In this document: one piece after another, positions 15,724 through 51,999 of the stretch
Numbering within the stretch: position 1 is the first letter of the stretch
How the letters are laid out: each line of letters opens with the position of its first letter
Assembly: GCF_002266435.3 (NCBI RefSeq)
Contig: NZ_CP029426.2
Span: 2,696,001 to 2,760,000, forward strand
Reading direction: 5' to 3'
DNA length: 64,000 nt
Origin: Bradyrhizobium amphicarpaeae
Lineage (GTDB): Bacteria; Pseudomonadota; Alphaproteobacteria; Rhizobiales; Xanthobacteraceae
Notes under the pieces: generated by a model
Told to the model about the DNA's origin: nothing
The model's database searches: none
What the model saw: the letters and a program-made list of their open reading frames with translations, nothing else
Program-made: the position numbers and the translations under genes

Positions 15724-16635
15724 GTGGATAAGCTCGGCAGCCTGCGGGCGTTCGTGAAGGTGGTCGAAAGCGGCAGCTTTGCGGAAGCCGGCCGGCAGCT
15801 GCGGCTGTCGCGTTCGGCGATCAGCAAGTACATCGCCGACCTTGAGGAGAGCCTTGGCGTCCAGCTGCTGAACCGGACCACGCGGCATGCGAGCCCGACC
15901 GAGAGCGGCCAGCGCTATTTCGAACGCGCGCTCGTCATCCTCTCGGAGGTCGAGGCGGCCGATCAGGCGGTGACACAGGCCCAATCGGCGCCGCGTGGGC
16001 TGCTCCGCGTCAACGCACCGATGTCGTTCGGCACGATGCGGTTGGGTCCGGTGCTGGCCGATTTCATGGCGCGTCACGGCGAGCTTCAGCTCCAGATCGT
16101 GCTCAGCGACGATCTGCTCGATCCGGTCCAGGACGGTTTTGATGTCACTTTGCGGATCGCCGAACTGGAATCGTCGAGCCTGATCGCGCGAAAGATCATG
16201 CCGGTGCCGCGGATGATCTGTGCGTCCCCGGATTATCTCGTGCGTCACGGCACGCCAAAACATCCGCAGGATCTGCGCGAACACACTTCGCTGACTTACG
16301 GCTTCCTGCTCACCGGCAATCAGTGGAAGCTGACGGGCGCCGACGGCGACCACTGGATCCAGCCGGCCTGGTCACTCTGCGTCAACAATGCCGAAGTGCT
16401 GCGCGATGTCGCGATCAAAGGCAGGGGGCTCGCGCTGCTGCCGGAGTTCATCGCGGCAAATGCTTTGCGGAAGGGCGAGCTGCGCGCTGTTCTTGAGGAC
16501 TATTCGGCGCCGCCGCTCGCGCTTTATGCGGTCTATCCGCCGACTCGGCACCTGTCAGTGAAGGTGCGGCTGTTCATTGACTTTCTGGTGGAGCGGTTTG
16601 GACGTGAGGAGGAAGCGGGCGCGCGCATGCGCTGA
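15724..16635 (+). CDS. LysR-family regulator of the dioxygenase/hydrolase pair
   Basis: This 303-residue regulator of the AaeR/DsdC-like LysR branch has a helix-turn-helix in residues 1-60 (SLRAFVKVVESGSFAEAGRQ, then RSAISKYIADLEESLG) and a substrate-binding domain from about 90 (LRVNAPMSFG). It starts at a GTG (VDKLGSLRAFV); no in-frame ATG upstream fits the family. It is divergent from the dioxygenase gene with two related dyads between them, so it most likely controls that operon in response to a quinone or related aromatic. It ends 297 bp before the next importer gene. Confidence 0.88.
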   Translation: MDKLGSLRAFVKVVESGSFAEAGRQLRLSRSAISKYIADLEESLGVQLLNRTTRHASPTESGQRYFERALVILSEVEAADQAVTQAQSAPRGLLRVNAPMSFGTMRLGPVLADFMARHGELQLQIVLSDDLLDPVQDGFDVTLRIAELESSSLIARKIMPVPRMICASPDYLVRHGTPKHPQDLREHTSLTYGFLLTGNQWKLTGADGDHWIQPAWSLCVNNAEVLRDVAIKGRGLALLPEFIAANALRKGELRAVLEDYSAPPLALYAVYPPTRHLSVKVRLFIDFLVERFGREEEAGARMR

Positions 16636-16932
16636 GGCATAGCGACTGCAATCCCGTGCCGGCGAGTGCGCCTCCGGCGGCCACAGAACCGAAGACGGTA
16701 GTCTGCTGCCCTCAACAACCGCTCTGCCTTTCACAAGGGCGGAAAAGCGCACTTTGCCCAACTCTTGAGCTATGCAAGCCTGCAAATCAATCACCAGGAA
16801 GATTGATTTCAATATGCAGTTTTGCACGAGCGATTGCATATCTCGCCATTTTCTTTCGCGCCGCTGAAGCCAACACTTCCCTTGCTCACGGCGGCAAGCG
16901 CGCAGCGAACCGCAGAGACCACGAGGATGCTG
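16636..16932 (+). promoter_or_regulatory. Leader region of the importer-nitrilase operon with a perfect dyad
   Basis: This 297-bp gap has no convincing gene. It contains a perfect inverted repeat, AAATCAATC (16784-16792) and GATTGATTT (16801-16809) separated by 8 bp, about 120 bp upstream of the permease start, inside a locally AT-rich stretch. It is a good candidate operator/promoter for the operon, perhaps bound by the LysR protein encoded at the operon end. GAGG (16923-16926) is the likely ribosome-binding site. Confidence 0.45.
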
Positions 16933-17718
16933 ATGCAACAGATCACCGAGGCGATCTCGAATCCAAAGGTGAAGCGCGCCATCGAATTGGCGATAGGGCC
17001 GCTGCTGCTGTTCGCCTTGTGGTGGATCGCGTTCAAGGGGCAATTGGTCAACAAGGATCTGTTGCCGTCGCCAGTCGACACTCTGCGCGATACCGCGGCC
17101 AGCATCGCGGCCGGTAAGATGACCGGAGATTTCGTCCACACCATCGCGCGTGTCGGCTATTCGACCTTGATCGCGGTGATTGCCGGCGTTCCGATCGGGA
17201 TCGTGCTCGGCGCCAAGGCCGCGATCTATCGCTCGGTCGAATTCCTGGTGGACTTCTTCCGCTCCACGCCGGCGACCGCACTGTTCCCGCTGTTCCTGCT
17301 GCTGTTCGGCCTCGGCGATTTTGCCAAGATTGCGGTTGCCGCTTTCGCTGCCTGGCTCGTCATCGTCTTCAACGTCGCCTACGGCGTGATGAATGCTCGT
17401 CAGACCCGCATCCTTGCCGCGCGTTCGATGGGCGCCTCGTCACTCCGTATCTTCAAGGACGTCATCTTCTACGAAACCCTGCCGCAGACCTTCGTCGGCC
17501 TGCGCACTGCGGTGTCGCTAGCGCTGGTGGTGATCATCGTCGCCGAGATGTTCATCGGTGCGACCGACGGCATCGGTCACCGCATCATCGACGCACAGAT
17601 CTCGTATTCGCTCACCGACATGTACGGCTCCATCCTGATCGCGGGCGCGATGGGATACGGGCTCAACCTCATGCTCCTGATGATCGAACGCTCGTTCATT
17701 CACTGGTCGGGTAAATAG
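16933..17718 (+). CDS. ABC transporter permease, SsuC/TauC type
   Basis: This inner-membrane permease of about 261 residues belongs to the nitrate/sulfonate/taurine importer class. It has a first helix (AIGPLLLFALWWIAFKG), the periplasmic LPSPVDTL motif that typifies SsuC/TauC proteins, four or five further helices, and an EAA loop (AARSMGASSLRIFKDVIFYETLPQ). I chose ATG 16933 because GAGG at 16923-16926 is six bases upstream; the frame stays open to 16822 but that extension is not family-like. The binding protein (17747) and ATPase (18755) follow in the same operon. Confidence 0.9.
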   Translation: MQQITEAISNPKVKRAIELAIGPLLLFALWWIAFKGQLVNKDLLPSPVDTLRDTAASIAAGKMTGDFVHTIARVGYSTLIAVIAGVPIGIVLGAKAAIYRSVEFLVDFFRSTPATALFPLFLLLFGLGDFAKIAVAAFAAWLVIVFNVAYGVMNARQTRILAARSMGASSLRIFKDVIFYETLPQTFVGLRTAVSLALVVIIVAEMFIGATDGIGHRIIDAQISYSLTDMYGSILIAGAMGYGLNLMLLMIERSFIHWSGK

Positions 17719-17746: not shown

Positions 17747-18742
17747 ATGCAAACGAAGAGATTTCTTGCTGCGTTCGCGACGTCCACGTTCCTGCTTGGC
17801 ACGGCCGGTGCGCATGCGGCCTGCGACAAGACCGAGAAGGTGACCGCAGTCTGGCTGCCGATCATGCAGACGACGGCCTACTACGTCGCTCTCGAAGAGA
17901 AGCTGTTCGAAAAGGCCTGCATCGAAATCGTCTCGACCAAGATGGAAGCGCCGAACCAGATCATCGACGCCCTCATCGCAGAGCGCGCCGATTTCGGTCC
18001 TCCGGGGGCTGCGGCCGGCATTGCGATGATTGCGGAAGCCAAATTCCCAGGCAAGCTGAAGGTGTTCGGCCTGCAGGGCGGGGGCATCGCCGTCGATCGC
18101 ATCAATGACGGACTGATCGTCAAGCCGGACAGCCCGATTAAGAGCTTTGCCGATCTGAAAGGCAAGTCGCTAGGTCATGTTCCGGGCATTCAGTGGCGTA
18201 CCATCTCGCGCCACATGGTCCGCTCGGCGGGGCTCGATCCCGATACCGACGTCAAGCTGGTCGACCTTGCCGTCGCCATGCAGGTGCCTGCCGTCGTCGG
18301 CGGGACGGTGGATGCGACATTGTCGCTCGAGCCGGTCGGGTCGATCGCCGTCGCCTCCGGCAAGGCGGTTCGCGCCATGAGCAATCCGGTCGCGCACGTG
18401 ATAGCCGATCCCTTCTATTCCGGAGCTTCGTTGATGACCACGAAGTTCCTGAAGGAACGACCCGACGTTGCGCGCAAAGTCGTTGCCGCGATCGACGAGG
18501 CGACCGACCTCGTGAACGCCGACTTCAAGAAGTACAAGCCGATCCTCACCAAGTACACACCCATCAAGGAGGACCAGCTCGAACTCCTGGCGCAGCCCTA
18601 TCTGCGCGGCTTCAAGGACCTGAACGACGTCGACCTGAAGTCGTATCAGGCGCTGGTCGATGTCTTCATCAAGGAGGGCGTCGTGGCCGGCCCGATCAAC
18701 GTCAAGGACAAGATTCTCGCCAAGTCTGATCTCGGAAATTGA
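17747..18742 (+). CDS. ABC transporter substrate-binding protein, NrtA/TauA (NMT1-like) type
   Basis: This 331-residue periplasmic protein has a Sec signal peptide (KRFLAAFATSTFLLGTAGAHA, cleavage after about residue 24). The mature part has the NMT1/SBP_bac_9-like pattern: VWLPIMQTTAYYVALEEKLF, then DLKGKSLGHVPGIQWRT and a run leading to YSGASLMTTKFLKERPDV. Family members bind small organics such as taurine, sulfonates, riboflavin, thiamine precursors or nitrate. The nitrilase-like gene in the same operon points to a nitrile, amide or carbamoyl compound, which is inference. Confidence 0.9.
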   Translation: MQTKRFLAAFATSTFLLGTAGAHAACDKTEKVTAVWLPIMQTTAYYVALEEKLFEKACIEIVSTKMEAPNQIIDALIAERADFGPPGAAAGIAMIAEAKFPGKLKVFGLQGGGIAVDRINDGLIVKPDSPIKSFADLKGKSLGHVPGIQWRTISRHMVRSAGLDPDTDVKLVDLAVAMQVPAVVGGTVDATLSLEPVGSIAVASGKAVRAMSNPVAHVIADPFYSGASLMTTKFLKERPDVARKVVAAIDEATDLVNADFKKYKPILTKYTPIKEDQLELLAQPYLRGFKDLNDVDLKSYQALVDVFIKEGVVAGPINVKDKILAKSDLGN

Positions 18743-18754
18743 TTGGATCATCCG

Positions 18755-19591
18755 ATGGGTAATGTGACTGCGATGCGTGTCGTGGACCGGACGGCCGCCG
18801 AGGGTGCGTCACCTGTTCCGTCGGCCAAGCCGCGGCAGGCCTACGTCACGGTGCGTGGGCTCAGCAAGAAATTCCAGGGCACCACGATCTATGAAGACTT
18901 CTCGATCGACCTGCCGATGGGGAAGTTCATCTCGGTGTTCGGCCCGAATGGTTGCGGCAAGAGCACCTTCATCAACATGATCTCCGGCCTGATGCCGATG
19001 GATGCGGGTGAGGTGCTTTACGACGGCCAGACCATCCGGGACACCCGGATATCGTACGTATTCCAGAACTACAGGGAGGCGCTGTTTCCCTGGATGCGCG
19101 CGATCGACAACATCCACTATCCGCTCAAGGTGATCGGCGTGGACCGCAAGGAGAGGGGCCGTCGCGTCGAGAAGCTGCTCGCTGATTTCGACGTGCCGTT
19201 CGACCTCAACGCCTATCCCTACACGCTGTCCGGAGGACAGCAGCAGACGGTTTCTATCCTGCGCGCGCTGGTGACCGAGCCTGAAGTGCTGTTCCTCGAC
19301 GAGCCCTTCTCCGCGCTTGACTACGAGATGACGCTGTTCATGCGGGAACGGCTCCAGCACATCTTCATGAAGCTGAAGACCACGATGCTGCTGGTGTCAC
19401 ACGATCTCGAGGAAGCCATCCAGCTCGCCGACCAGGTCGTGCTATTGACGCGCCGGCCGACGCGGGTCGCGGAGATCGTTCCGGTGGATCTGCCGTGGCC
19501 GCGCGACCTCGACGTCACCACCGGCGAGGGGTTCATCACCCTGAAACGCCATTGCCTCGACCGCTTCTGGCGCGAGGTCAAGCGAGATTAA
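18755..19591 (+). CDS. ABC transporter ATP-binding protein, SsuB/TauB type
   Basis: This 278-residue ATPase has Walker A FGPNGCGKSTF, Q-loop (YVFQNYREALFPWM), signature LSGGQQQTV, Walker B LFLDEPFSALD and H-loop VSHDLEEA. The FPW after the Q-loop is characteristic of SsuB/TauB proteins. I chose ATG 18755 with GGAT upstream; a TTG at 18743 would add four residues. The first 30 residues are a poorly conserved extension before the core. It drives the importer formed with the permease at 16933. Confidence 0.9.
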   Translation: MGNVTAMRVVDRTAAEGASPVPSAKPRQAYVTVRGLSKKFQGTTIYEDFSIDLPMGKFISVFGPNGCGKSTFINMISGLMPMDAGEVLYDGQTIRDTRISYVFQNYREALFPWMRAIDNIHYPLKVIGVDRKERGRRVEKLLADFDVPFDLNAYPYTLSGGQQQTVSILRALVTEPEVLFLDEPFSALDYEMTLFMRERLQHIFMKLKTTMLLVSHDLEEAIQLADQVVLLTRRPTRVAEIVPVDLPWPRDLDVTTGEGFITLKRHCLDRFWREVKRD

Positions 19592-19622
19592 GTCGATCAA
19601 CTTTCGAAAGATGGAGACCAAC

Positions 19623-21296
19623 ATGACGAAGCGCCGTTTCCGCGCTGCCGCCGTCCAGACGCTCGCCCGTCTGGGGGATTTCGACCACAACATCGCGCTT
19701 GTCACGCAATATGTCCAGGAGGCCGTAAGGCAGGGGGCCGAACTGGTGGTGTTCCCCGAATGCATGGACACCGGCTATCTGTTCGATTCCGTCGACCACT
19801 GCCGCGAGCTCGCCGAAACGATGTCGGATGGACCGTTTGTCACGGCGCTGTCCGCACTCGCCAGGAAGCACCGCATCTACATTGCCAGCGGCGTCACCGA
19901 GTGGGATCCCGCCAAGGAGAAGATCTTCAACACAGGCATCATGTTCGGCAGGAATGGCGAGACCGTCTGCCACTACCACAAGCAGTTCCTCGCGACCCAC
20001 GATCAGAACTGGTTTGCGTTCGGCGAGCGCGGCTGCCCGGTGGTGGATACCGATCTCGGCAGGATCGGCCTGCTGATCTGCTTCGATGGCCGCATTCCCG
20101 AGATCTTCCGCGCGATGGCGATGCAGGGCGCGGAAGTGATCGTCGACATGGCGAACTTCTTTGCCATGGACCAGGCGGACATGTGGGGTCCGGCCCGCAG
20201 CTACGAGAACGGCATGTGGCTCGTCGCGGCCACCAAGGCCGGCTATGAACGCTCGATCTACTATCCCGGCGGCAGCATGATCGTCGACCCCAAGGGACGC
20301 GTGCTGTCGAAGGTGCCTTACGATACGCACGGCATGGCCATTGCTGACATCGATCTCGACGCCGCGCACGACAAGTCGATCTACGCGGCGAATGACAAGA
20401 TCGCCGACCGCCGTCCCGAGACCTACGGCCTGATGGCGCTGCCATACGAGAAGACGCCGGTTTACCGGATCGCCGAGCAGCCGCTGATCCCGGCGAAATC
20501 CGTCGCGAAGGTGGCGGCGGTGCAGATGCACGTGACCAAGGACAGCCCGCCCGAAGACGTGTTCGACATGGTCGACCACGCGGCGAAGCTGGGCATCAAG
20601 GTCCTCACGCTGCCGGAATATGCGTTCTGTCCGTCCGCCATTCCGAATGCAGCGGAGGCCGCGGCCCTGGCCGACCAGACGGCGATGTTGCTGGCAAAGA
20701 CAAGCGCGATCGCGTCCCGCTATCAGTGCCTGATCGCATTGCCCACCGTGGAGCGGGCCGCAGCGGGGCTATATGTCACGACGTTCCTGATCGGGCCCGA
20801 CGGCAAGGAGGTCGGGAAATATCGCAAGACTCACCTGACGGCCGAGGAGCGTAAATGGGCGAAAGCGGGCGACGACTATCCGGTGTTCGAGACGCCGTTC
20901 GGCCGGATAGGTGTCATGTCCGGCTATGACGCCGTATTCCCTGAGGTGTCGCGTTGCCTCGGCATCGCGGCCGCGGACATCATCCTGTGGCCGGCCTCGC
21001 TGCGCGAGCCGTTCGAACGGGAGTTGCTGGCGATCCCGAGAGCCGAGGACAATCGGGTGGCGGTGGTGCTGGCTAACCGCGTCGATTCGCCCTATCCGGG
21101 CGGCAGCCTCGTGATTCCGCCGACCGGCTTTCCGCTTTGGGACATCAACGTGGTCGCGCCGCGCGCCCTCAGGCTTGGCGCCGTGATGCCCAAACATATC
21201 GACCTGGCGGTCTGCCGGCAAAAGCTGATGATCCCGAAGGTCGACATGTTCGCCAACCGGCTGGTCGAGACCTACGCTCCGATCATTGCCGCCTGA
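19623..21296 (+). CDS. Tandem carbon-nitrogen hydrolase (nitrilase superfamily) with a dead second domain
   Basis: This 557-residue protein is two nitrilase-fold domains in one chain, about twice the normal length. Domain 1 (about 1-280) has the full Glu46 (VFPECMDTG), Lys120 (YHKQF), Cys153 (LLICFDGRIPE) triad and should hydrolyse a C-N bond. Domain 2 (about 295-557) keeps Glu332 (LPEYAF) and Lys402 (YRKTHL), but the nucleophile position is Gly434 (GVMSGYDAVFPE), so it cannot form the thioester. ATG 19623 is favoured by GGAG six bases upstream; ATG 19611 is an alternative. It lies 31 bp after the ATPase of a TauABC-like importer, so it probably acts on the imported nitrile or amide. Confidence 0.9.
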   Translation: MTKRRFRAAAVQTLARLGDFDHNIALVTQYVQEAVRQGAELVVFPECMDTGYLFDSVDHCRELAETMSDGPFVTALSALARKHRIYIASGVTEWDPAKEKIFNTGIMFGRNGETVCHYHKQFLATHDQNWFAFGERGCPVVDTDLGRIGLLICFDGRIPEIFRAMAMQGAEVIVDMANFFAMDQADMWGPARSYENGMWLVAATKAGYERSIYYPGGSMIVDPKGRVLSKVPYDTHGMAIADIDLDAAHDKSIYAANDKIADRRPETYGLMALPYEKTPVYRIAEQPLIPAKSVAKVAAVQMHVTKDSPPEDVFDMVDHAAKLGIKVLTLPEYAFCPSAIPNAAEAAALADQTAMLLAKTSAIASRYQCLIALPTVERAAAGLYVTTFLIGPDGKEVGKYRKTHLTAEERKWAKAGDDYPVFETPFGRIGVMSGYDAVFPEVSRCLGIAAADIILWPASLREPFERELLAIPRAEDNRVAVVLANRVDSPYPGGSLVIPPTGFPLWDINVVAPRALRLGAVMPKHIDLAVCRQKLMIPKVDMFANRLVETYAPIIAA

Positions 21297-21340: not shown

Positions 21341-22309
21341 ATGCCGAAGCTCGCGAACGGGCATATCAGGACGGCCGAGATGGCGAAGGCTGCGCGAACG
21401 CTGCGCTACAATTGGGACGACGTGATCTTCTTCCTGGAGGTCGCGCGCACCCGCAATCTGGTTCGCGCCGGCCAGAAGCTGAAGGTCGACCACACCACCG
21501 TCAGCCGGCGGGTGAGGGAGCTCGAACGCAGCCTCAACACCACCCTCTTCAAGCGCAGTAAGGCCGGCTTTGCCCTGACCGAAGCGGGCCTACGGCTGCT
21601 TCAGTTCGCCGAGGGCATGGAGAACAACGCCAACGCCATCATCGAGACGGTGGTTGGGTCCGAGAAGGCGGATGCCGCTGGAGCGGTGCGAATTGCCGCC
21701 ATGGAAGGCATCGGCAGCATGTACCTGACGAGCTGCATGGCCGCGTTCAGCAAGGCGTGGCCCTCGATTCAGGTCGAGCTGATTACCGATACACGCCTGC
21801 TCGACATGACGCGCCGTGAGGCCGACATCTTCATCAGCTTCTTCCGACCGAAGGGAAGGCGGCTCTCGGTCAAGAAGATCGGCGAGTTCCGGATATTTCT
21901 TTACGCCTCCAATGCCTATTTGCAGCGCGCGGGAGTCCCGTCCGATCTGAAGGACCTCGACAACCACGCCTTCATCGATTTCATCGACGAGCACATCCAC
22001 ATCAAGGAAAACCGCTGGCTGTCCGATATCCTGCGGCCGGCCCATGTCGTGTTTCGCAGCACCAGCCTGGTCTCGCAATATATGGCGGCATCGAACGGCC
22101 TCGGCATCGCCATGCTGCCGTCCTACGTGGCGGCTCACAACAAGGATCTGCGCCCGATACTGCCGAGCTATTTTTCCGTCCGCGACATCTGGATTTCTGT
22201 CCACGAGGACCTTCTCCACATCGCCCGCATCAAGGCGGTCATGGGCTTCCTCGAGAAACGCGTCGCGGCCGATGTCGATCACCTGATGTCGGCGGCGCAT
22301 CCGCGTTGA
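21341..22309 (+). CDS. LysR-family regulator at the end of the importer-nitrilase operon
   Basis: This 322-residue regulator has about 22 extra N-terminal residues before the helix-turn-helix (WDDVIFFLEVARTRNLVRAG, then HTTVSRRVRELERSL), followed by a co-inducer domain (VRIAAMEGIGSMYL). It is in the same direction as the importer and nitrilase genes, 44 bp after the nitrilase stop, so it may be the last gene of the operon and control its own transcript. The substrate-binding region (IFISFFRPKGRRLSVKKIGEF) resembles the branch of LysR proteins with a short DNA-binding linker. Target and inducer are unknown. Confidence 0.87.
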   Translation: MPKLANGHIRTAEMAKAARTLRYNWDDVIFFLEVARTRNLVRAGQKLKVDHTTVSRRVRELERSLNTTLFKRSKAGFALTEAGLRLLQFAEGMENNANAIIETVVGSEKADAAGAVRIAAMEGIGSMYLTSCMAAFSKAWPSIQVELITDTRLLDMTRREADIFISFFRPKGRRLSVKKIGEFRIFLYASNAYLQRAGVPSDLKDLDNHAFIDFIDEHIHIKENRWLSDILRPAHVVFRSTSLVSQYMAASNGLGIAMLPSYVAAHNKDLRPILPSYFSVRDIWISVHEDLLHIARIKAVMGFLEKRVAADVDHLMSAAHPR

Positions 22310-27156: not shown

Positions 27157-30100
27157 ATGCCCGGACCGTCCGCGGCGCGGGACAATGACGAACCGACGAC
27201 GCTGCGCCGGCTGGCGCGGTTTCGTTCGATGTCGCTGCTGTGTGCGATGCAGATGGTGTTCCTGCCGGTCTACGGCGTCCGCGTTCAGGCGCAGACGGCG
27301 AACGTGATCGTTCCCGATGGACGGACTGGAACGAGCCTCCAGACCTCCGGCAGCGTCACCAACGTCACGACGTCGACGGTCTCGGGCAACAACGCCTTCA
27401 ACTCGTTCTCGCAATTCAGCGTCGGGCAGGGCAACACCGTCAATCTGCAACTGCCGACGGGCACGCAAAACCTCGTCAACATCGTTCGCGACGCGCCGGT
27501 CTACGTCAACGGCACGCTGAACTCCTACATGAACGGCTCGATCGGCGGCAACGTCTACTTCGCCGATCCCAAGGGGTTCGTGGTCGGCCGCAGCGGCGTG
27601 GTCAATGTCGGGAGCCTCAACGTCTCGACGCCGACGCGTGAGTTCACCGACAGCCTGATCGGTCCGGGAGGTGCGATCAACGGCACGGCCGTCGGCAATC
27701 TGATGGCGGGCTCGTTCCCGGTCTCGCCGGACGGCAACATCCGCATCTATGGCCGGGTCAATGCCCAGGATGGCGTTCGCCTGACCGGACAGAACGTTTT
27801 TGTCGGCGGCGCGACCCAGCGCGACATCGCCAATCTCGACCACGCCGCGAAGTTCGCGGCATCCGTGAATTCCAAGGGGCTGCGCAGCGCCAGCGCGATC
27901 ACCGTCAGCAACGGTTCGATCCATATCGGCGCCGTCAACAATGCGCGCGTCAACGGTCGGCTGACCGCACGCAGCAAGTCCTCGACGCCGAGCAACATCA
28001 CTGTGCAGGCCGGCAACAATATCGAGGTCGGCAAGAACGCCCGGCTGAACATTGCCAGTAAGACCGGCGATGCCGGCGAGATCCGTCTGAAGGCGGCGCA
28101 AAATCTGACCGTGACGGGCGGGGCAAGGTTCAACGCGAGCGCAAAGATCGGCAATGCGGGCCTCGTCGATTTCAGCGCGAATGGCGTCATCGATATCGGC
28201 CAGGGCATCAAGGTCGATCTTGGCGCGGCTAACGGCAAGGCCGGCACGCTGCTGATCGATCCGACGGATCTCGTCGTTGGTGATGCCGCTCAGGGCGATA
28301 TCGGCGTGACGCTGTCGAACAGCTCGGTCGCGGCGGCGATCAACGGGCTCAGCGCCGGCGCCACCTACCTTATCCAGGCAGACAACTCGGTCACGCTGGC
28401 GGCCCACGCGGTGGTCGATACCCGTCGTCTCGATGCCAATGGTTATTCGACGGGCAATGCCAACGACATCCGGATAGAGGCGCGGATAATCGATATCCAG
28501 AACGGTGCGCAAATTCTCGCGCAGGCCGTCAACTCCGCCAGCACGCATTACACCAGCGGCAATGTGACGCTCGCGGCGACGGCGAGCGACAGCAAGCTGT
28601 CCGGCCAAGCCACTGCGACCTCGGGAATTGCGGTCGACGGCCGGATCACCGGCGGTGACATCACGATCGCATCGGTCTCGACGGCGTCGTCCAGCTTCAC
28701 GAGCTCGGTCCCTGGCCTCTTTACGCTGGTGGGCACCACGCTCGCGGCCTCGATGCTCGGCATCAACGGCGGCTACGTGGCCGCGAGCGCCACCGCGACG
28801 GTCAATATCAACGGCAACGCCAACATCAACGGCACCGGCAACGTCTCCATCGCCTCGCATGGTTCGGAGACCGCGCAGGATCCGGCGATTGCGAGCACCT
28901 TGATCGGCGGCTCGCCGATCGGCGCCGCCGCTGTCGTCGGCAAGATCGACGGCAATGTCAGCACCAATGTTGCCTCCGGCGCCACGATCAACGCAGGCGG
29001 CAACCTCGGCATCCACGCCATCAACGATGCAAATTTGGCCGTCACCGCGGTCGCAGCGACCTCCAGCGCGCAATTCGTCGAGACGGTGGCCTATTCCACC
29101 GGTTCGGTCTCGACCACGGCCAATGTCGCGACCGGCGCGAACCTTGCCGTCGGCACCGTGAATGCATCCGGCAACTCGCTGACAGTGCGGGCGATCAACA
29201 ACAACTCGTTCTCGACCGGCGCCACGTCGGTTGCGCTGAGCACGCCGACCGCCAGCGGTGGTGTTGGCGGGGCGCTTGCGATCAGCGACGTCACCACGTC
29301 CGCAACCGCGAAGCTCGGCTCGTCGCTGGGCACTAGCGCGTCGTCGCGGATGAACGGCTCAGTTCTGGTCGAGGCGACCTCGAACACGACGAGCAACTCG
29401 ACCATGGCGTCGACCATTGTCGGCACGCCGGCCCTGGTCGGCGCGATCCAGGAGTTTTTGGTCTCCAGCCCCAGCCTGACGGGGATGATGGCTCAGCAGA
29501 TGGTCTCGCTGATGCCGGTGAACTTCAATTTCAAGGCCGCCGGTGCGCTGTCGCTGGCCAACAGCACTGAAAACGCGACGGCATCGATCGGCCAGAATCC
29601 GAGCGGCGGCGCGCCGAGCCTTTATGTCAGCGGCAACGTCGCGGTCGTTAGCACTCTCATCGATCGGGGCGTGCGCAGCAATGCGACGGCTTCCGCGATC
29701 ACCAAGGACGTTACCAGCGGCGAGGGCGTCGCGATCAGCGCGGCGGTCGCCTGGGGCAATTTCAACCACAATTCCAACGCCTATATCGGCAGCGGCACCA
29801 CCGTCAACGCGGCCAACATCGCCGTTGACGCCACCACCTCGATGCCGATCACCAATACCTGGCTGAAGTGGGACGGACTGACAGAGGTCCTCGGCCATCT
29901 CAACGGCAATCTCGGCGTTGGCGGCAATATCCTGACGAGCTATGCCAACGCTACTGCCGACGCTGGCGACACGATCGGCCTCGCCGGCTCGATGAACCAT
30001 TTCGTCGTCAACAACAACACGACGGCCTGGGTGGCCGGCAGCGCCAGTCTGACCGCGACTTGCACCACCGCGGCCTGCGGCAGCAGCTGGTCCGCGACGG

Positions 30101-33100
30101 TCAACAACGGTGACGTCCATACCTACGACACCAGCATCCAGATCGCGGCGACCACGACCATGGCGTCGATCGACGCGGCCGGCAATGTCGGCACGCTCGG
30201 CTTCCTGTTCGGCAACACCTCGGGCGGATCGTCCGTGGGCGGAGCGCTCAATCTCGTCCAGTTCAACACCAACACCATTGCGGGCGTTTCCGACCGCGCG
30301 ACGCTGCGCGCGGCGGACGACATCGCCGTCAACGCGATCACCTCCGACCAGTTCGTCGCTGTCGCACCCTCGTCCGGCAAGGCGGCGGGCGCGCTGGCGC
30401 TGAACGGCATCACGTCGCTCGGTTTCCTGAACAATACGACCCACGCGTCGATCTCAAGCCAGGCCACCGTCTATGCACCGACCGTCGGCATCCTGGCGCA
30501 GCAGGACCTGTCGGTCGTGACCCTGTCCGGCGCGATGAGCTTTAACGGCAGCGGCGGTTCGGCGGTCGGGTTGTCGGTCGCCTATCTGGGCGCAAATACC
30601 GACACCTCCGCCTATATCGGCGACAACCATTCCGATATCCGGCCCGGCGTGTTCAGCTCCAACGATCCATTCGCCGGCACCAGTGGCGGGAGCGGAGCGG
30701 TCAACGTCGACAACCTGACGCTCAGCGCGACCACCTCGGGGCGCATCACCGCGGCCGCCGTCGCGGCCGCGGTCTCCGACCCGGCGTCGTCGAGCTTCTC
30801 CGACAAGGCCGAAGCTGCCGGCGCGGCCTCGACCGGAGGGGCCGGGGGCGTGGCGACGGCCGCAAGCAAGATCGGTTCGACCTCTGGATCGAGCACCAGC
30901 GGCTTCAGCCTCGATCTCGCCGGCAGCTCGTCGGTGAGCGACGTCTCGCTCGGCACCAGCGCCTATATCCGGAACACGACGGTCAACAAATACACCACGG
31001 CGAGCGCTGTCACGACCAATACGATCGTTCAAGCGCTCAACGACACCATGCTCAACAATGGGTCCGGCTCGGCGGCGCTCAATCTGGCCGGAGCGTCCGC
31101 CACCGGGGCTGCGATCGGCGGCGCGATCGCATCGGCGATGTCGAACAACGCGACGCTCGCCTATATCTACGGCACCACCATGAACGACCAAAGTTTGGTG
31201 ACGGTGCAAGCGCTAAATGGCGGCTCGGAAACCGTCGTTGCTCTTGGCGTGGCGGGATCGAGATCCAATTCGGCGTCGCTGTCGGCCTCGGTCGGCATCA
31301 TCACCGACAGCGCCAACGCCTATATCGAGAGCTCGACGATCACGGGGCAGGCGACCGGCGTCAACCGGGCGCTCGAGGTCGACGCCTACCAGACGACGAA
31401 CATCGCGATCGGCGGCGGCTCGCTCTATCTATCGGGCGGCCAGGTCGGCGTCGGCATCGGGCTGACCTATGCGTCGATTGCCGATCCCACGGGGGGCAAT
31501 GCCACCGACGCGCACATCCGTACCTCCGCCCTCTCGAACTACGACACCCTGCTGGTGATGGCCGACAGCGCCAGCGTGATTGCGGCCGGTGCGGCCTCGG
31601 GCGGGGGAGGGGCCAGCGCCAACGGACTTGCCGGCGCGATCGTCGTCAACGAGATCTCGCCCACCACGACCGCCTACATCAACAGCGGCGCGACGGTGAC
31701 CATCAACGTCGGACGCGTGACGGTGCTGGCGGACAGCGGCGCCGTGTCGGCGCTCGACACCGCGCTCGGAAACCTCGTCAAGAAGTCGAACAACAACCAT
31801 CTCGCCTCGGACACCTGCACGGTCGCCGGCGGCACGGGCGGGCAGAATTGCATCGACTTCAGCGCGGCCGCGCTCAACGACGGTGCGGGCAACGGGCCGG
31901 GTGCCAGCATCATCTCCGTTGCGGGCATGATCCAGGCCGGCAAGAACAATGTTGGGGCGTCGCTGGTGTACGACACCATCGCGACGACGCATTCGGCCTA
32001 TATCGCCAACGTGCTGCTGACGGCGGGCGTCAACGGCAATGTCAGCGTGAGTGCGGTCGATTCCTCGAAGATCCAGTCGGTCACGATCGGCTTTGGCCTG
32101 GCGACCGGGCAGTTTGCGGGCGTCGGCGGCACGACGATCAGCAGCATCGCCAATACCGTTTCGGCGGCCATCGGCAACAACCTTTCGAGCGCGTCGCAAT
32201 CGGCCATCACGGCCAAGAGCATTCTGGTGACGGCGACCGACAATTCCAGCATCACCGGGACCGCCGCCGTCGCAGGCGCCTCGACGCAGGGCAGCGCCGC
32301 GGGTCTGGCGCTCGTCAACAGCAGCATCGCCAACAATGTCAGCGCCGGGGTGACCGGCTCCAAGCTGACCGCCTCGGGCAGTGTCGCGGTCGGCGCGAAC
32401 TCGAACGCTGTCATCTCGACCGTCGCGGTCGGTATCGCGATGTCCTCGCAGGTCGGTCTCGCTGGCTCGGTCGCCACCAATCTGATGGGAACCAACGTCA
32501 CCGCCAGCATCACGGCGGCCGGCACCAACGGTATCAACGGCGCCGACGTCACCGCCACCAACAATGTCGGGGTGATCGCCGGCAACAACGACAAGGCAGC
32601 CGTGTTCGCCGGCGCCGTCTCGATCAGCAAGGGCGCGGCCGGTGGCGCCGGCTCGCTGGTGACCAATCAGATCACCGGCACCACCGCGGCCTATATCACC
32701 GGGGCGAACACCAAGGTCGACGCGCTCGGCACCAGCACCACCGATACGCTGTCGGTGAACAACGGCACGCTCGTGCATGCCTTCGATCTCGGCGCGGCCC
32801 AGGCGCCGACCGACACCACGCCCGACCTTTCCGAGAACCAGGATGTTCTGCGTGGGCTCGGCGTGGTCGCGAGCTCGCACCAGGCGGTCGTGACCAACGT
32901 CGCTTCGGTCGCCGCCAGCAGCGGCATCGCCATCATGATCAACCCCATCACCAACGTGATGAGCGGAGCGACGCGGGCCTATATCGACGGCGCGGCGATC
33001 GACACGCGCCTGACGTCGTCGACCCTCAAGCCGCAGATCGAGGTCGCCGCCTCGAGCTTCTCCTATTCCGGAGCGTTCGGAGCCGGCGTCGCCTATGGCA

Positions 33101-36100
33101 GCACCGGCGGGGGCGGTGCGACGATCGTCTCGACGACGATGTCGCGCGAGACCTTCGCCACCATCACCAATGCCACGGTCGGCGGCATCCGGTCGTCAAG
33201 CGCGACGGTCGGTGCCGTCACCGTGAAGGCCAATGCCGAACAGGATGCGTCTTCGATCGCGATCGGCTTCAACACCGGCTCGGTCGGGTTGAACGTCTTC
33301 CAGGCGACGACGGAAGCCTATGTCGACGGGGGCGCGCTGACGGCGTCGTCGCTGACGGTGAACGCCAACAACACCACGGGCATCTTCTCCGCGAACGGCT
33401 CCGGCGCCTATGGCAGCCAGGCCGCGATCGGCGCGGCATTCCTGGTCCAGGTCTCCTCGAACCGGACCGAGGCCTATGTCGGCGACGAGTTCCACTATCA
33501 GGGCAATGGTGCCGCACACACGACCGCGCTCAATCTGAGCGGGGCGCTCGACGTCGAGGCCAACACCAAGAATCGCTTCGAGGCCTATGCGATCGGCGGT
33601 GCGCTCTCGACCGGAACGGCGGCGATCGCGGGCATGGCGAACATCGAGATCGCCAGCAACACCACCATCGCCGGCGTGTATGACACCACGCTGCAATCGG
33701 TGACAGGCGGTGCGGCGGGTGCGGTCACTATCAACGCGACCGAGGACGTGGCGATCAAGGAGATCGCAGGTGCGCTCGCGGTCGGCGCCAGCGGGGCTGG
33801 CGTCGGTGTCGGCGCCGCCGCCAACGTGATCTCGTTCAAGAGCCAGACCATCGCCGAGAGCCGCAACAGCAACTTGAATTCGTCCGGTGCGATCAATGTC
33901 GCCGCGCTCAGCACCAAGGAAGTGCTGTCCTACGCGGTCACCGCCGGCATCGGCGGCAGCGTCGGCATCGGCGCGACCGTCGGCGTCATCATCATCGGCA
34001 CGAACACAGCCGATACCGACACCCAGGGTCAGCAGACCGGCCAGCTCAATCAGGGCAACAACGGCACGATTGCGGCGGTGAACGCCAGAACCAGCACCAC
34101 GCATGGCGGCGACGCCGTCGGAAGCGGGACGGCCGGCAATCCGAGCAATGCCAATGCCACCTCGACCTACGACGTCAGCGGCGTCCTGAGCGGCGGCAAC
34201 GACGCCGTCGTCGCGCAGATCGCCGGCGGCAACGTCATCGGCACGCAGGTCAATGTCACCGCGACCAGCGCAAACGCGGCCAAGATGTATCTGCTCGGCG
34301 CCGGTTTCGCGAAGAATGTCGGCATCGGGGCCGGCATCGGCTACACCAGCGTCAACAGCACCGTGCTCGCCAATTTGAGCGATTACGGGCGCGACGGCTC
34401 CGGCAATTTGGTGGCCGCCGATACGCCTCTGACGGTCTCGGCGACCGCGGTCAATGTCGCGGCGGTCGTCAAGGACGCCAGCACCGGACCTTACGCCGGC
34501 AAGACCATCGACACCGAGGCGATCGCCGGCGGCGCGGCGCTCTATTTCGGCGCCCAGGCCTCCGTGGCGGTCGGCAATGTCAACAATTCCGTGGTCGCCA
34601 TGCTCGGGGGCCAGATCACCGGTACGGGCGCCGCCGCCGTCATGGCGCTGGATTCGTCGAGCCAGGTCGTCTTCACCGGCGGCGCTAGCGCCGGTGCCGT
34701 GGCGGTCGGCGCATCGGTCGCAACGGCGAGCCGAAACAGCTCGGTCGCAGCGCGTGTCCTGAACGGCGCCACCGTCAGCACCTCGACATTGGCGGTTGGA
34801 GCCGCGGGTGCGGGCACAATGAGCACGACCGCAACCGCTCTCGGCGGCGGTATCGTTGCCGGCGTCGGCGCGGATGCAGAGGCCCACGAAGACTCGGGCG
34901 TGCTCGCCGAGATCGGATCCGGCGCCTCGATCGCGACCTCCGCGACCGGTGTCGGCACGCTGGTGACGGCGTCAATCACGCCCAATCTGTCGAGCGAGGC
35001 GATTGGCGTCTCGGTCGGTGGCGGTGCCGTCGGTATCGCGATCGCGCAGTCGACCGTCGGAGCCACCGTGACTGCCGATGTCGGCGACAACGCTATTTTC
35101 TCCGGCGGCGCGCTCGGCGTGACCGCGATGGCGCTCGTCCCGATCATCGGTACGCAGAGCAATGCCGACGGAACCACGACGACAATCTATGGCACCACGA
35201 CCTGGGCCAAGGCGCTCGCCGGCGGCGGCGGTTCGCTGATCGGCGCACAGGGCAGCTTGGCGAGGGCATCGGAGAACGCGACCGTCAACGCGTATGGCGG
35301 AACCGGGATCCGGCTTCCCAACGCCGACGTGGCCATCGCTGCCGAGAACGACAGCGCCCAATACGCCGAGGCGACCGGTCTTTCCAGCGGATTCCTGGCA
35401 CTGGGCGCGACCGTGGCGCAGACGTCGTCGAACGCGCACACCTATGCCTATCTGGGCGCACCTGCCGACATGGATACGCTGAACCATGCCGACTACACCG
35501 GCATCCTCCAGATCACCGCCACCGGCAGGGACACCAACGTTTCCAACGCGACGGTCGGGGCGGGCGGCACCTATGCCGGTGCGGCGGCGGTCGCCACCAC
35601 CAGTTCGACCGCGGTCACCAATGCGCGGTTCGACGGCGGCTCGACCGACGACACGCTCTATTTCGGCGGTCTCAGCGTCAAGGCCACGCACACCACGAAT
35701 TATGCGGCCAACGGCGATGCCTACCAGGCGTCCACGGCCGGCGTCTCGGGCGGCAGCGCGCGGAACGACGTCACCTCGACCACCACGGCCGAGATCGGAA
35801 CGCATCTGATCATCAATACCGATGGCGGCAATATCGTCGTCATCTCCAACGACATCGTGAACCAGGCCGGCGGCGGCGCACGTTCGGGCTCCGGCGGTAC
35901 GTTCGCAGGGGCGGCTGCGCTGAGCGAATCCTTCGTCACCCAGAACGTCACCACCAATATCGGCGCCGGGACGATCCTGAGCCTCAACGGCGATCCGCGC
36001 ACGGCGACGGGCGTGATCGACATCGAGGCCTACAACACGCTGAACACGGTGGACACGGCAAGTCTTGCCACCGCCGCCTTCTTCGCCGGCGGGGGTGCCG

Positions 36101-39100
36101 AGTCCAACATGACGGCGAACGCGACGCTCGCGGTCAACATCCATGCCCGCGAGCTGTTCAGCGTCGGCAAGATCTTCGTCGGCACGGCGGCGAAAATGTC
36201 GGCTTCCAACTATGCCAATGCCAGCCTCTATGGCGCGATCGCCGGCGTCGGCGCCAGCACCAATAGCTGGGTCCATGCGGACCAGGAGGTCACCGTCGAC
36301 AGCGGCACGACGATCCAGGCCTGGCGCGACATCAATATCTTCGCCGGCATGTCGGGCGATACCATCACGTTCAGCAGCATTCAGGCCACTGCGACGACCG
36401 TCGTCTACAACAACACCGCCATTCCGATCTCGGCTCTCTACCGCGGCACGGCCAATGCCGGCGGCGACAGCAGCCTGACGCTCTCCGACGGCTCGCGCGT
36501 GCTTGGCGTCCGCGACATCTATCTGGGCGCGACGCAAGGGCAGGTCACCGCCACCGGCAACGGCAGCAATTACAATCCGTATCTGGACATCTTCAGCGCC
36601 AAGAACAGCGACAATCACAGCCACACCAGCGGAACCGGTGATGTCGCGCTCAATGGCCTGGTGGTGGCGGGCATCAACAACGACCTGACCATCCTGATCG
36701 AGCTCGGTGCAAGCGCGCCGACCCTGAGCACGACGAGCCCGTATTCGTCGCTGTCATCCACGCTCGAATACGTCGCCGACGTCGATCATTTCAGCCCGGT
36801 GAAAAGCTGGAACCATCAGACGGTGCAGTACACCATCGTCGGCGGCTTCAATCCCTACCAGAACATCGTCGACCAACTCGCCACCCTGACCGGCCTGACT
36901 GATACGCAGGTCCGGACCCAGCTCGCGACGTCGACGAACGCGCATCCCGCCACGATGGCTCCGTCGGGCGCCGATCCGACCCGTGACATCCAGCGCCAGA
37001 TCAACGCGTTGATCCAGCAGGCGCCTTATACCTCCGACGCCGGCGGCAACGCCTTCGCGTTCGGCGACATGCTGGTGTCCGCGGGCAATGTCTCGATCCT
37101 GGCGCAGAAGCTGACCGGGAACAGTCTCGCCGGTCACACAGCGCCGTCCGTCACCGCACTGAGTTCGCCAAAGATCAAGGTCGAGAACCGCGGCCTCGAC
37201 TTCATGGACTTCGCCAACCTGACCGTCACCAACGTGACCGGCGGCAACATCACCTACCGCCAGATCGACCATGTCGACCCGGATTCGCATTCCAACGTGA
37301 CCTTCACCGCCACGCCGAGCGCGACGCCGATCATCGACATCTCGGCGAGTTACAACCGCGTGGATCCCAGCACCGGGCTCGGCGTCGACGACAATGGAAA
37401 CCAGCTGACCCGCAAGCCCGACATCTATTTCGACGGCATCGTCACCAACGAGAACGGCCTCCTCAAGATCACCAGCCAGCTCGGCAGCGTCGTCGCGTCG
37501 CAGTCGCTCAATGCAGCGACCATCCAGATGGTGGCGCCCAACGGCTCGTTCATCTTCCTCGGCGGCATCGGCAGCTTCTACAACTCCAACCACGACGTCA
37601 CCTCGCAATGGGCCGGTGTCGAGTACAAGCCGGCCGACAACGACACGCTGACGGCGGTGATGGCGGCGGCGACCTATCTCGGCGCCTATGGCGACTACGC
37701 GACCAGCCCGCATATCGGCGCAGGCGGCAATCACCCGTATTTCTATTACTGCTGCGTCGACGGCAATACCGGCGTTCAGCAAACGGCCGCCAACAGCACG
37801 GTCTTCACGGCCCGCATGCTGATGACATATTATGACGGCTTGTCGCTCTATTCGGCGATCTTCCTGCCGATGGGCAACGGCACGCCCAACGGAGGCGGCG
37901 GCAGCGTCGGCAGCACCGCCACGCTCGCGGCAATGGAAGGCCCGACGGTCCAGCCGATCTCAACTGCGCCGTGGGAGAGAAATACCTATGCCGGCCAGGG
38001 CGTCTTCAGCAACACGACCCACGATTACACCACGACCTCGACGGATGCCCAGGGCAACACCGTCACCACCAACCACACGGCGACGTACTACTCGCCGTTC
38101 AATTGCTCGGGATGCTCGGCCTATTTCCAGGTCGTCAATATCCAGAACGACGTGATCACGCCAAGAACTGCGAGCACGAACGCGAGCACGAACTGGGCGT
38201 CCACGACGCCTTCGGGGTTCCAGAACCCTGCGAATGCGCCCTTCATCCTCGGTCAGGCGATCATCATCTCGGCGGGGGTCATCAACGTCAACGGCCTGAT
38301 CCAGAGCGGCACGAGCAGCAATTACTCGGTCGATATCGGTGGCGGGGTGCTGTCCGCCGTCAACGACCTCAAGTCCCGCAACAACGGAGCCGACTTCCTC
38401 CAGGCCCAGGCCAATGCGCGGAACGGCAGCTATTACGACATCACGGCGGCTGCGACGACGCAGGTCTCCAGCGATATCAAGATCGGCGTGAAGTACAATG
38501 CACTCACCGACCAGATCATGGTGAACGGCGTGGTGCAGGGCTCGGGCGGCTACGTCTATCTGAACGGCAAGATCATCTCGACCTCGACCGACGGCACCGC
38601 TCAGGGCACGATCGCGGTCAAGGGTGGCGCCGGGTCGATCACGGTCAACAACACGACCGGGCTCCAGCTCGTCACCAACACCATCAACACCGGCGTCAGC
38701 GCGCCGAGCGTGATCCAGATCGTCGATCAGCTGCAGCAGCAGACGACGTGGTACGTCTACAATCCGTCCGCGTCGGGCGGCCAGCAGGTGTCGACGTATC
38801 GGACGAATGGCGTCAATGCGAGCCAGTTCACCGACTCGATGCTGGCCGGCCTCAGCGGCACGGCAGGCATCCAGTACGCCGTGAAGCCAAACATGTACTA
38901 CCAGTGGGTCGATACGGCGACGCTGGATCGTCCGACCACCAGCACGCAGTTCGACTATGGCTGGCACTACACGCCGAACGCGTCCGGAGACAACTGGACC
39001 CGCACCGTCAGCCTGGTCGAGAACGTGATGCAGGCCACCGGCGGTGGCGGCAACACCGGCCAATTACAGACCGCCAACTTTCAGGAAGTCGTCACCGCGA

Positions 39101-42100
39101 CCGGCAGCTATCATAACGCCGGCTACAACACGTCGGCCGGCCTGTGCTGCGGTGCGGACGCACATTTCGACTGGTTTCAGCAGATCTACGATCACCTGAC
39201 CCTGACGCTGACCAACACGGTCAAGGCGTCGAATCCGATCAACATCCAGTTCAGCGGCGGGGGCGTCAGCACCGTCAATGTCAGTTCGAACTCCGGCATC
39301 GTCATCAACGGCCCGATCAACAACCTGTCCGGTGATACGACTGTGCGGGCCATCGGCGTCAATTCCGCCATCACGTCCGGTCCGAGCGCCAACAACCCGA
39401 TGATCTCGGGCAAGAACGTGACGCTGCAGGGCGATGGTGGCATTGGTTCGCTCGGTGCGAACGGCGTTCCGGTTCAAGTGCAGGTCTATGGCGGCAATCT
39501 GACCGCCACCTCGATTGATCGCGACATCGCGGTCGCGGCTGTCGGCTCGCTCTCGATCAACCAGGTCGCCGTCGCCTCGGGTGTCTCCGGCCGTGCGCCG
39601 CAGGGCAGCGTCTCCATCTCGGCAACCGGTGACATCAACTCGGCTGGTGCTTATGACGCCGCCACCCCCGTCGTGATCGGCAAGAATATCGAGATCGACT
39701 CCAGCGCCGGCGCGATCGGCGCCACGAGCAGCGTCGTCAATGGTGCGACCACGCTGACCAACATCAAGCCGCTGGTGATCCAGGCGACGGGCACGACGCA
39801 GTCCGACGGCACCGTCGATGGCGGCGTTCTCGACAGCGCTTCGGCCGGCGGCACTTATATCGTCCAGTCCAAGGGCGATTTGCGGATCGGCACGATCCAG
39901 TCGACCGGCGGTCCGGTCTTCCTGGCGGCGGCCGGTTCCGACGGCAACCAGGCCAGCATCCTGAACGGCCGTGCGACCGTTGGTATCTCCGCCGCGGAAA
40001 GCGCGCATCTCCAGCAGGTCTGGGACAACCTCAATTTGCTCAACGGCAACCCGGCCACAGCCGCCGTCAACAGCTACCAGTCCATGGTGACGGCGGCCTA
40101 CAACGACTACTTCCAGCTCAAGAACATCGCCTTTGCCAACGACACCTACAACCCGACCTCGGTAGGCCTGACGGTGCTGCGGGCGCAGGTGGCTGCCAAG
40201 CTCGGCATCGACCCGGCGAACGTCTCGACAACACAAATGAAGGTCGAGGCCACGACCAGGTTCCTGAAGGATCAGTTCCTGCTCGGCAAGATCTCGACGG
40301 CTGAGCTCCAGAGCGGGTTGACGACGTTGCTCGGAAGCGCTCCTGCGGATGCGCTGGGGACGGTGTTCGGCAGCACGCTGTCGTCGGGCCTGTTCACCAG
40401 TCTGTTCCAGGGCGTGGCGGCGGCCGATCAGCGCCTGCCGACCAACGCTGCGCTGCAGGCGGCGCTGAACAGCTATAGCGCGAGCTACAACTACACGCTC
40501 GCGTCGACCGAGCGGGTCTACAGCATCATCACCGCGGGCTCGAACTGGACGCACGACCAGCTCGCCTACACGGTCTCTTCGTCCGCCATCGGCGCAACGC
40601 CGCCGCCGATCGACGACAACGTCATGGCCAATATCAGCGCCAACCAGATCATGCTCTACGCGCCGCGCGGCTCGGTCGGCAATTCGGCCGCGCCCCAAAT
40701 GTTCTCGTTCACAAGCGCCGATTCCTCGACGCTGTCGAATGAGCAGAAGGCATTGCTCGCGTCGGCCGGCCCCGGCCAACTCACGGTCAGCGCGACCACG
40801 GACCCGACCACCCATGTCACGACCTATACGGTCAGCCTGTCGCAGCAGAACCTCGTCGTCGTCGACAACCCGATCGCGATTTCGGCCAAGGCGCTGTCCA
40901 ATGTCTATCTCGGCAGCAAGAACGGCCTCACGCTCGGCGGCGTCACCGCGAACTACGGCCCGATCGCTGCGGCGCAGGCCGACGGCATCGCGGTGACCGG
41001 CCGCGGCGACGTCAAGCTCCACGCGGTGAACGGCATCACCGCCGGCGTGGCCGGCGTGCCCGTGATCTCCGGCGACATTGCCAACCTGACCCTGATCGCC
41101 GAGCACGGCAATATCGGTGCCCCGTCGGGAACGGCCGGAAGCAACCCCGCGACCAACCCGAACGCGCTCCAGATCGCCTTCGCCGATCCGTCCAACGATC
41201 AGCTCGACCAGGTCTCGTCGGGGCAGGGCATCTATATCAGGCAGACCACCGGCGATCTCGTCCTCGGCAACATCGCCGCCGGCAACGATATCCAACTGGC
41301 CGCGGCCGGCAGCATCTACGCCGAAGCCGGCTTTACCGACCGGTCGGCAATCCACATTCTGGGCTCGGACCTCGACCTGCGCGCCGGCGGCAGCATCGGC
41401 TTCAACGGCTCGACGTTCCAGCCGCTGCAGGTGAACATCTCCGGCGCGGTTACAGGCTCTGCGGTCGGCGATCTCAGCATCCTCGCGGTGACGGGCGATC
41501 TCGCGGTCGGCACGAGCGGTCCCTATGGCGCGCTGACGGCCGGCGGCGCGTTGACGCTGAACGTGGCGCGCGGCGCACTCACCATCAACACTGGCATCAC
41601 CAGTGACGGCCTGATGCAGCTGCTCGCCAACCGCGGCATCACCTTCGCGGCCGGCACCAGCGCGGCGCCGGTGGTCGCGACCAGCAGCTCGGAAGGCGTG
41701 ACGCTGGTGGCTTCCACCCTGTCGATGGGCGCCTATTCGGCCATCAATGCGGCCGGGTTGATCTCGGTGACCACCACGGCCGATGCGACGATCGGCCAGC
41801 TGAATTCGTCGCTATCCTACGCGGCCGCCTCGAACACCCCGTCGATCATCGTCACCGCCGGCGGTGTCGCCTCGCTTGGCGCGATCATCGACAATGGCGA
41901 CGGCCAGACCAAGTTCATCGCCTCCGGCGCGGGCGCGGAGCTCTCGCTGAGCGCATCGAACGGTATCGGCAACGCGGCCGGCCGGTTCAACCTCAGTGCC
42001 GCGCGTCTGTCGGCGAGCGCGGGCGCCGGCGACATCTACGTCAATGTTCTCACCGACACCGAGGTGAGCTTGCTGTCCGCGGTGAAGGGAAGCGTGGACA

Positions 42101-51678: not shown

Positions 51679-51701
51679 CGGCCACCGGCAAATGGTGGCC
51701 G
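51679..51701. other. Short hairpin between cobO start and the riboswitch
   Basis: CGGCCACC (51679-51686) pairs with GGTGGCCG (51694-51701) around a 7-base loop, giving an 8-bp stem in the narrow gap between the divergent cobO and the riboswitch. It may be an operator or part of the cobO leader; no T-run follows, so it is not an intrinsic terminator. Confidence 0.4.
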
Positions 51702-51702
51702 G

Positions 51703-51894
51703 GCGTTGGTTCCTGTCCTATGACAGGCGAAGAGGGAATGCGATAGGGTCCGAATCGGCAAGATTTTGGTCCAAAATGCAGCCGCCCCCGCGACCGTGAC
51801 CGGAGAGATGCCCGAAGCCACTGATCCCCTGGGATCGGGAAGGCGGGGATCGAAGGGGAAACCCTGCTCCGCAAGCCGGGAGACCTGCCAGCGC
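51703..51894 (+). ncRNA. Cobalamin (B12) riboswitch
   Basis: The leader of the DUF1636-cobW-cobN operon contains the conserved pieces of the B12 riboswitch in order: AGAGGGAATGCGA (from 51731), GCAGCCGCCCCCGCGACCG (from 51778), the GCCACTG element (51817-51823), GGGAAGGCGGGG, and the B12 box GCAAGCCGGGAGACCTGCC (51871-51889). P1 is formed by GCGTTGG (51703-51709) with CCAGCGC (51888-51894). No T-run terminator follows, and a weak GCGGA/TCCGC hairpin lies at 51911-51928, so control is probably translational: adenosylcobalamin binding lowers expression of the synthesis operon. Confidence 0.95.
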
Positions 51895-51999
51895 AACGAG
51901 TTTTGGACCGGCGGACGGGGTGTTCCGCGACGGGGAAGCAGGCCTTCGGAAGAATGGTCCGTGCGCCTCATCGCCTCCGCCGTTTAATCTGGAAGAGCG

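Follow-up and report, generated by a model that had tools for sequence, protein, structure and literature searches.

A 64,000-nucleotide stretch of the Bradyrhizobium amphicarpaeae genome (contig NZ_CP029426.2; hereafter the window) encodes, at positions 19623..21296 of the plus strand, a tandem nitrilase of 557 amino acids in which two nitrilase-fold domains are joined in one chain. The ATG at 19623 is preceded by a GGAG motif; the open reading frame spans 19611..21296 (+; 561 amino acids), with an in-frame ATG at 19611 as a possible upstream start, and residue numbers count from the ATG at 19623, as in an earlier interpretation made from the letters of the window (the sequence-only reading). 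Domain 1 (D1; 19623..20477, +, approximately residues 1 to 285) is a C-N hydrolase domain with an intact triad of Glu46 (codon 19758-19760, +), Lys120 (19980-19982, +), and the nucleophile Cys153 (20079..20081, +), and it carries Asp127 (20001-20003, +) seven residues after the lysine (Lys+7). Domain 2 (D2; 20490..21293, +, residues 290 to 557) is a pseudo-nitrilase that has Glu332 (20616-20618, +) and Lys402 (20826-20828, +) and in which Gly434 (20922..20924, +) replaces the cysteine nucleophile. Residues 46, 120, 153, 332, 402, and 434 are E, K, C, E, K, and G, all as the sequence-only reading had given them.

The nitrilase fold claimed for both halves is borne out by Pfam, PDB matches, and predicted structure. 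Two stretches of the protein match PF00795 (CN_hydrolase), the D2 stretch alone with 92.4 bits (E value of 8.3e-26 in the B. amphicarpaeae genome), and D2 alone also matches solved nitrilase-superfamily chains in a PDB sequence search (E value of 2e-20). In a single-chain AlphaFold model, the predicted strands and helices of D2 repeat those of D1, and the whole forms one fixed two-domain body (predicted template modeling score [pTM], 0.92). Membership in the CN_hydrolase fold is thus indicated for D1 by PF00795 and for D2 by bit score, PDB match, and predicted secondary structure, but D2 lacks the catalytic cysteine of the nitrilase superfamily, with Gly or Asp at the site in all readable tandem rows. 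The tandem protein does not reach the NCBIfam cutoffs for nitrilase (NF040852; 244.7 versus 500 bits) or N-carbamoylputrescine amidase (TIGR03381; 184 versus 410.25 bits).

Relatives were gathered in three protein searches (best 120 of 791, best 120 of 1485, and best 120 of 306 matches), giving for the window type and for the second subfamily a set of 121 rows each, made up of the query protein and its 120 best homologs. A further scan of one genome per species covered both types with patterns taken from D1 only, so that its rows were selected for the D1 motif and not on D2; it confirmed 221 stretches, and the top 80 loci were retained. Together with the genome-search loci these made 127 rows, or 106 distinct rows after removal of 21 exact duplicates, and the sets of close homologs, of the second subfamily, and of distinct rows share some members. 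E46, K120, and C153 are each present in 121/121 rows of the window-protein set, and so is G434. The second subfamily, which is about 33% identical to the window protein and is represented by a copy in the same genome and the 120 best homologs of that copy, has Gly at the D2 nucleophile site in 121/121 rows, and the third-type tandem nitrilases (L136 and L137; 36 to 38% identical) likewise carry Gly. Among the 106 distinct rows, D1 has Glu in 104/104, Lys in 105/105, and Cys in 105/105 readable cases, and at D2 position 434 there are 101 Gly, 4 Asp, and no Cys; the one unreadable row (L032) is an open frame that stops within D2. The hosts named in the scan records include alpha-, beta-, and gammaproteobacteria, cyanobacteria, an actinomycetote metagenome-assembled genome (MAG), Bacillota, and Pelagibacteraceae MAGs. 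A tandem homolog with an intact D2 cysteine was sought as a refutation of the conserved Cys-to-Gly change, and none was present in the sets examined.

In a search with D2 alone, the first 79 of the best 120 matches, mostly pieces or relatives of window-type proteins, have Gly in 71, a missing residue in 7, and Val in 1 (a misaligned row), and the 41 weaker ones have Cys in 29, Gly in 1, and a missing residue in 11. One candidate for a stand-alone D2 (P0299; 272 amino acids) was rejected and is probably a fragment, because its nearest two relatives are L157, where the tandem gene is intact, and L156, where it is frameshifted. The Lys+7 residue of D1, the candidate position for the second Glu of the E-K-C-E set as placed by the PDB alignment, is Asp in 63 of the distinct rows, Glu in 42, and unreadable in 1; Asp occurs in the window type and the third type, and Glu in the second subfamily.

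D2 is about as constrained as D1 among close orthologs and is hence not junk. In comparisons of the window gene with seven Bradyrhizobium or Bradyrhizobiaceae orthologs, the ratio of nonsynonymous to synonymous substitution rates (dN/dS) is 0.036 to 0.064 for D1 and 0.045 to 0.069 for D2. In the relatives examined, too, D2 lacks the cysteine, so the domain appears to be an old, integral helper and not a defective remnant. In the domain trees, a weakly supported branch (73, then 32) sets the D2 rows apart and the D1 rows form two groups, and the approximately unbiased (AU) test rejected neither a single D1 clade (P = 0.667) nor D1 and D2 together (P = 0.491). Given this branch support, the divided D1 rows, and the nonrejecting tests, one ancient fusion event is compatible with the trees but no more.

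The sequence-only reading had also proposed a co-encoded TauABC-like importer and a LysR gene, and both are present on the plus strand. An ABC permease gene (TauC/SsuC/SaoP-like; 16822..17718, with a start that we judge to lie probably further downstream) is followed by genes for a substrate-binding protein of the NMT1/SsuA type (17747..18742) and an ABC ATPase (18743..19591), then by the nitrilase gene and a LysR-type regulator (21341..22309); a second LysR-type regulator (15724..16635) lies upstream of the importer. The importer proteins do not reach the NCBIfam cutoffs for SsuA_fam (96.1 versus 163.5 bits), TauC (94 versus 342 bits), or the taurine ATPase (162.5 versus 357 bits). Rfam found no riboswitch, guanidine or other, in the importer operon, and only tRNA at six relative loci.

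Neighborhoods were compared at 80 named loci (54 of the window type and 26 of the second subfamily), some ending early at contig ends, with genes in the relatives' stretches called by our own script. The linkage to the importer is nearly universal: in 53 of the 54 window-type loci the tandem gene is immediately preceded, in the same orientation, by genes for the permease, binding protein, and ATPase, and the sole exception (L056) is cut off by a contig end within the gene. A LysR relative occurs in 34 of the 54 loci and a NifA-like sigma-54 regulator in 9. Genes of nitrogen metabolism near the tandem gene include nitrile hydratase (NHase) alpha (8/54; on the opposite strand and about 4 kb off in L048), a BiuH-like hydrolase (6/54), and allophanate hydrolase (AtzF) or a relative (5/54); genes for allophanate hydrolase and nitrile hydratase are also present elsewhere in the window genome. 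The BiuH identity of the isochorismatase-like neighbor was not established (217.6 bits against a cutoff of 370), nor was the FmdA identity of the formamidase-family neighbor (71.2 against 500).

Most second-subfamily loci combine a urea-type importer with a formamidase-family gene. An acetamidase/formamidase-family gene is found in 22 of the 26 loci, and the UrtA-like, AmiC-like, and LivH queries each match in 21, the first two of which may cross-match. The label AmiC-like for the binding-protein gene is our own; the libraries call it Peripla_BP_5 and UrtA-like. The second tandem nitrilase of the window genome (L002; 33% identical) lies about 100 kb away in such an operon (L176:2803-12954), with genes for AmiC-like, ANTAR, and UrtA-like proteins, Liv permeases, an ATPase, a formamidase-family protein, the tandem nitrilase, and a short-chain dehydrogenase/reductase (SDR); ANTAR was assigned by library match and most others by likeness to L091. 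A third-type tandem nitrilase elsewhere (L179:3609-12519) adjoins a Tau/Ssu-like importer set, with a second such set recognized by eye. Another genome of the genus has a divergent tandem nitrilase of the window type (L181:7167-8882, -) within a nif island that contains nifE, nifN, nifX, and nifS (NCBIfam), DUF269 and Rieske domains (Pfam), and nifK by eye.

The reading we favor, with moderate confidence, is that the tandem protein is an importer-coupled amidase in which D2 serves as a permanent, catalytically dead partner that completes or stabilizes the D1 site. Nitrilase-superfamily enzymes are reported to function as dimers or in higher assemblies (PMC4700190), and here the covalent D1-D2 pair would replace the usual homodimer. 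D1 would perform the chemistry through Glu46, Lys120, and Cys153, presumably in the cytoplasm, and D2, which has kept the fold without the nucleophile (and in many relatives without Glu and Lys as well), might also lend a C-terminal lid, as the neighboring subunit does in other nitrilases. The Tau/Ssu-like importer would take up a small, nitrogen-rich compound (an amide, a ureide, or a nitrile), and D1 would hydrolyze it to ammonia for nitrogen nutrition. A nitrile substrate, one of the two classes (nitrile/amide) that the sequence-only reading had suggested, is not favored by the nearest solved enzymes, which include amidases and a thermophile nitrilase; this structural kinship makes an amide or ureide the more likely substrate, and nitrile hydratase in some operons suggests that nitriles may enter upstream.

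The built-in heterodimer proposed earlier would fit the confidently predicted two-domain body. Several solved chains align in the structure search not just to D1 but also to the final part of D2, a hint that the D2 C-terminal segment may stand in place of a subunit tail, and it stays a hint because 4gyl, 4kzf, and 5g3o, which are the same or related enzymes, align to D1 only. The pTM score indicates a fixed arrangement of D1 and D2, but not whether they pack across the A-surface, as in a nitrilase dimer. Three observations weigh against a dead partner packed on D1 and fed by an importer: two presumed interface helices of D2 show no significant excess of conservation (circular-shift P = 0.18); neighboring AtzF, BiuH-like, and NHase genes occur in only the minority of window-type loci counted above; and no importer gene was recognized beside the tandem nitrilase of the nif island.

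The strongest rival, which we regard as unlikely, makes D2 a ligand sensor, its emptied pocket binding either the substrate brought in by the importer or some nitrogen metabolite and so switching D1 on or off. The close relatives speak for it, with Lys402 in 121/121 and Glu (119) or Asp (2) at position 332, and so do the strong purifying selection on D2 and the dead domains or subunits with an active twin that are reported for PTPRU and prozyme. Over the 106 distinct rows, however, the pocket charges are often lost: position 332 is Glu in 88, Gln in 9, Leu in 6, and another residue in 3, and position 402 is Lys in 79, Gln in 24, and another residue in 3. Keeping both residues, as the window protein does, is therefore not general in the class, and D2 has the look of a pseudoenzyme rather than a cysteine-free hydrolase. 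The sequence-only reading had suggested that D2 might be regulatory or substrate-gating; a gate based on the retained Glu and Lys is not supported.

A role of D2 chiefly in higher-order assembly, as in a filament or through a C-surface contact, rather than in completing the D1 site, appears improbable; oligomerization is reported to shape nitrilase activity (PMC4700190; PMC13275509), but the AlphaFold model covers one chain only. More improbable still is a functionless, decaying duplicate. D2 does diverge faster, D1 being the more alike domain in 571 of the 595 pairs of 35 rows (mean identity, 49.1% versus 38.6%), yet the dN/dS of D2 is about as low as that of D1 and full-length D2 is retained across phyla. 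Hydrolysis by D2 through another nucleophile or direct water attack is comparably unlikely, and we rank it slightly lower: the window protein and its nearest homologs retain Glu and Lys, but in many relatives these positions hold Gln, Leu, or something else, and the adjoining position 433 (Ser 41, Ile 40, Leu 12, Val 5, Ala 3, Met 2, Asn 1, Thr 1, and unreadable 1 in the 106 rows) offers no conserved replacement nucleophile. Finally, the conserved loss of the D2 cysteine is neither an isolated mutation nor a sequencing error, a reading refuted by Gly in every row of each of two subfamilies.

The closest known systems share features with the tandem protein and also differ from it. The PH0642-type archaeal amidase/nitrilase (PDB 6ypa, 1j31, and 3ivz), which ranks among the top sequence matches and is the top structure match, shares the fold and Glu-Lys-Cys with D1, but it is a single domain with no dead partner and, in the PDB alignment, has Glu rather than Asp at Lys+7. 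The structure matches also include the amidases 2uxy and 2plq. The aliphatic amidase AmiE belongs to the same superfamily but is single-domain with an intact cysteine; it is under AmiC/AmiR control, and the second-subfamily operons resemble that system in their ANTAR gene and in the binding-protein gene that we call AmiC-like. In NitFhit (1ems), the nitrilase domain is fused to Fhit and not to a second, dead nitrilase, and in the DRT1 anti-phage reverse transcriptase the fusion is to a reverse transcriptase, with lid exchange between protomers (PMC13275509). Receptor phosphatases with an inactive second domain and the AdoMetDC prozyme are described as similar pairings of an active and a dead paralog, but their folds and the processes they serve are unrelated. 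Some window-type loci carry genes like those of the nitrogen-scavenging clusters with BiuH, AtzF, and NHase, and the available text on them names nit1 and nit2, with no tandem nitrilase among them (PMC12625717). No description of such tandem nitrilases was found in the open-access literature searched, where "tandem" nitrilase referred to the tandem Arabidopsis NIT genes and other matching papers dealt with DRT1 nitrilase domains, general counts, or what appeared to be other pseudoenzymes and topics.

More tentatively, the tandem proteins may form a multiphylum class of obligate active/dead nitrilase pairs in which the dead domain has since ancient times acted as an activating subunit, like prozyme, was fused before the subfamilies split, lends the lid, and perhaps reads the substrate with its pocket. 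If so, two mobile importer operons for nitrogen compounds would have these proteins as their dedicated hydrolases. A family with one half dead and fused would let one ask what a partner subunit contributes without chemistry of its own, and it would mark the two importer operons, on chromosomes and on Klebsiella, Agrobacterium, and Rhizobium plasmids, as likely nitrogen-compound uptake routes.

The distribution of tandem nitrilases is patchy. Counting the window genome, they occur in 4/289 genomes of the class and 12/41 relatives (E value, 1e-50) and in 21/198 genomes of the family (1e-100). A mixed alignment matched 13/349 genomes of the phylum (1e-60), with 9 of the 15 matches full-length tandem proteins (8 genomes) and 6 single-domain, and a third-type query matched 9/398 (1e-60). 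Among plasmid records, 54/72,556 were matched (1e-40), with Klebsiella, Agrobacterium, and Rhizobium plasmids among the hosts. A Klebsiella IncR plasmid carries genes for a sigma-54 regulator, an importer, the tandem nitrilase (with Asp at the D2 nucleophile site), a second importer, nitrile hydratase, an isochorismatase-family hydrolase, and LysR. A Klebsiella IncFIB plasmid encodes a urea-type importer, a formamidase-family protein, ANTAR, and a tandem nitrilase, and an Agrobacterium pAt plasmid encodes ANTAR, a urea-type importer, and a tandem nitrilase, with formamidase not annotated in that stretch. The two Klebsiella plasmids are from one wastewater isolate, which has both operon types (L193:3919-16634 and L194:1319-10719), each tandem nitrilase operon being flanked by transposase genes.

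Elsewhere in the window, the sole Rfam match is a cobalamin riboswitch at 51690-51906 (+; 105.9 bits). A very long open frame at 27157-43572 (+; 5471 amino acids) is repetitive by eye and may encode an adhesin of the filamentous-hemagglutinin type, which it resembles.
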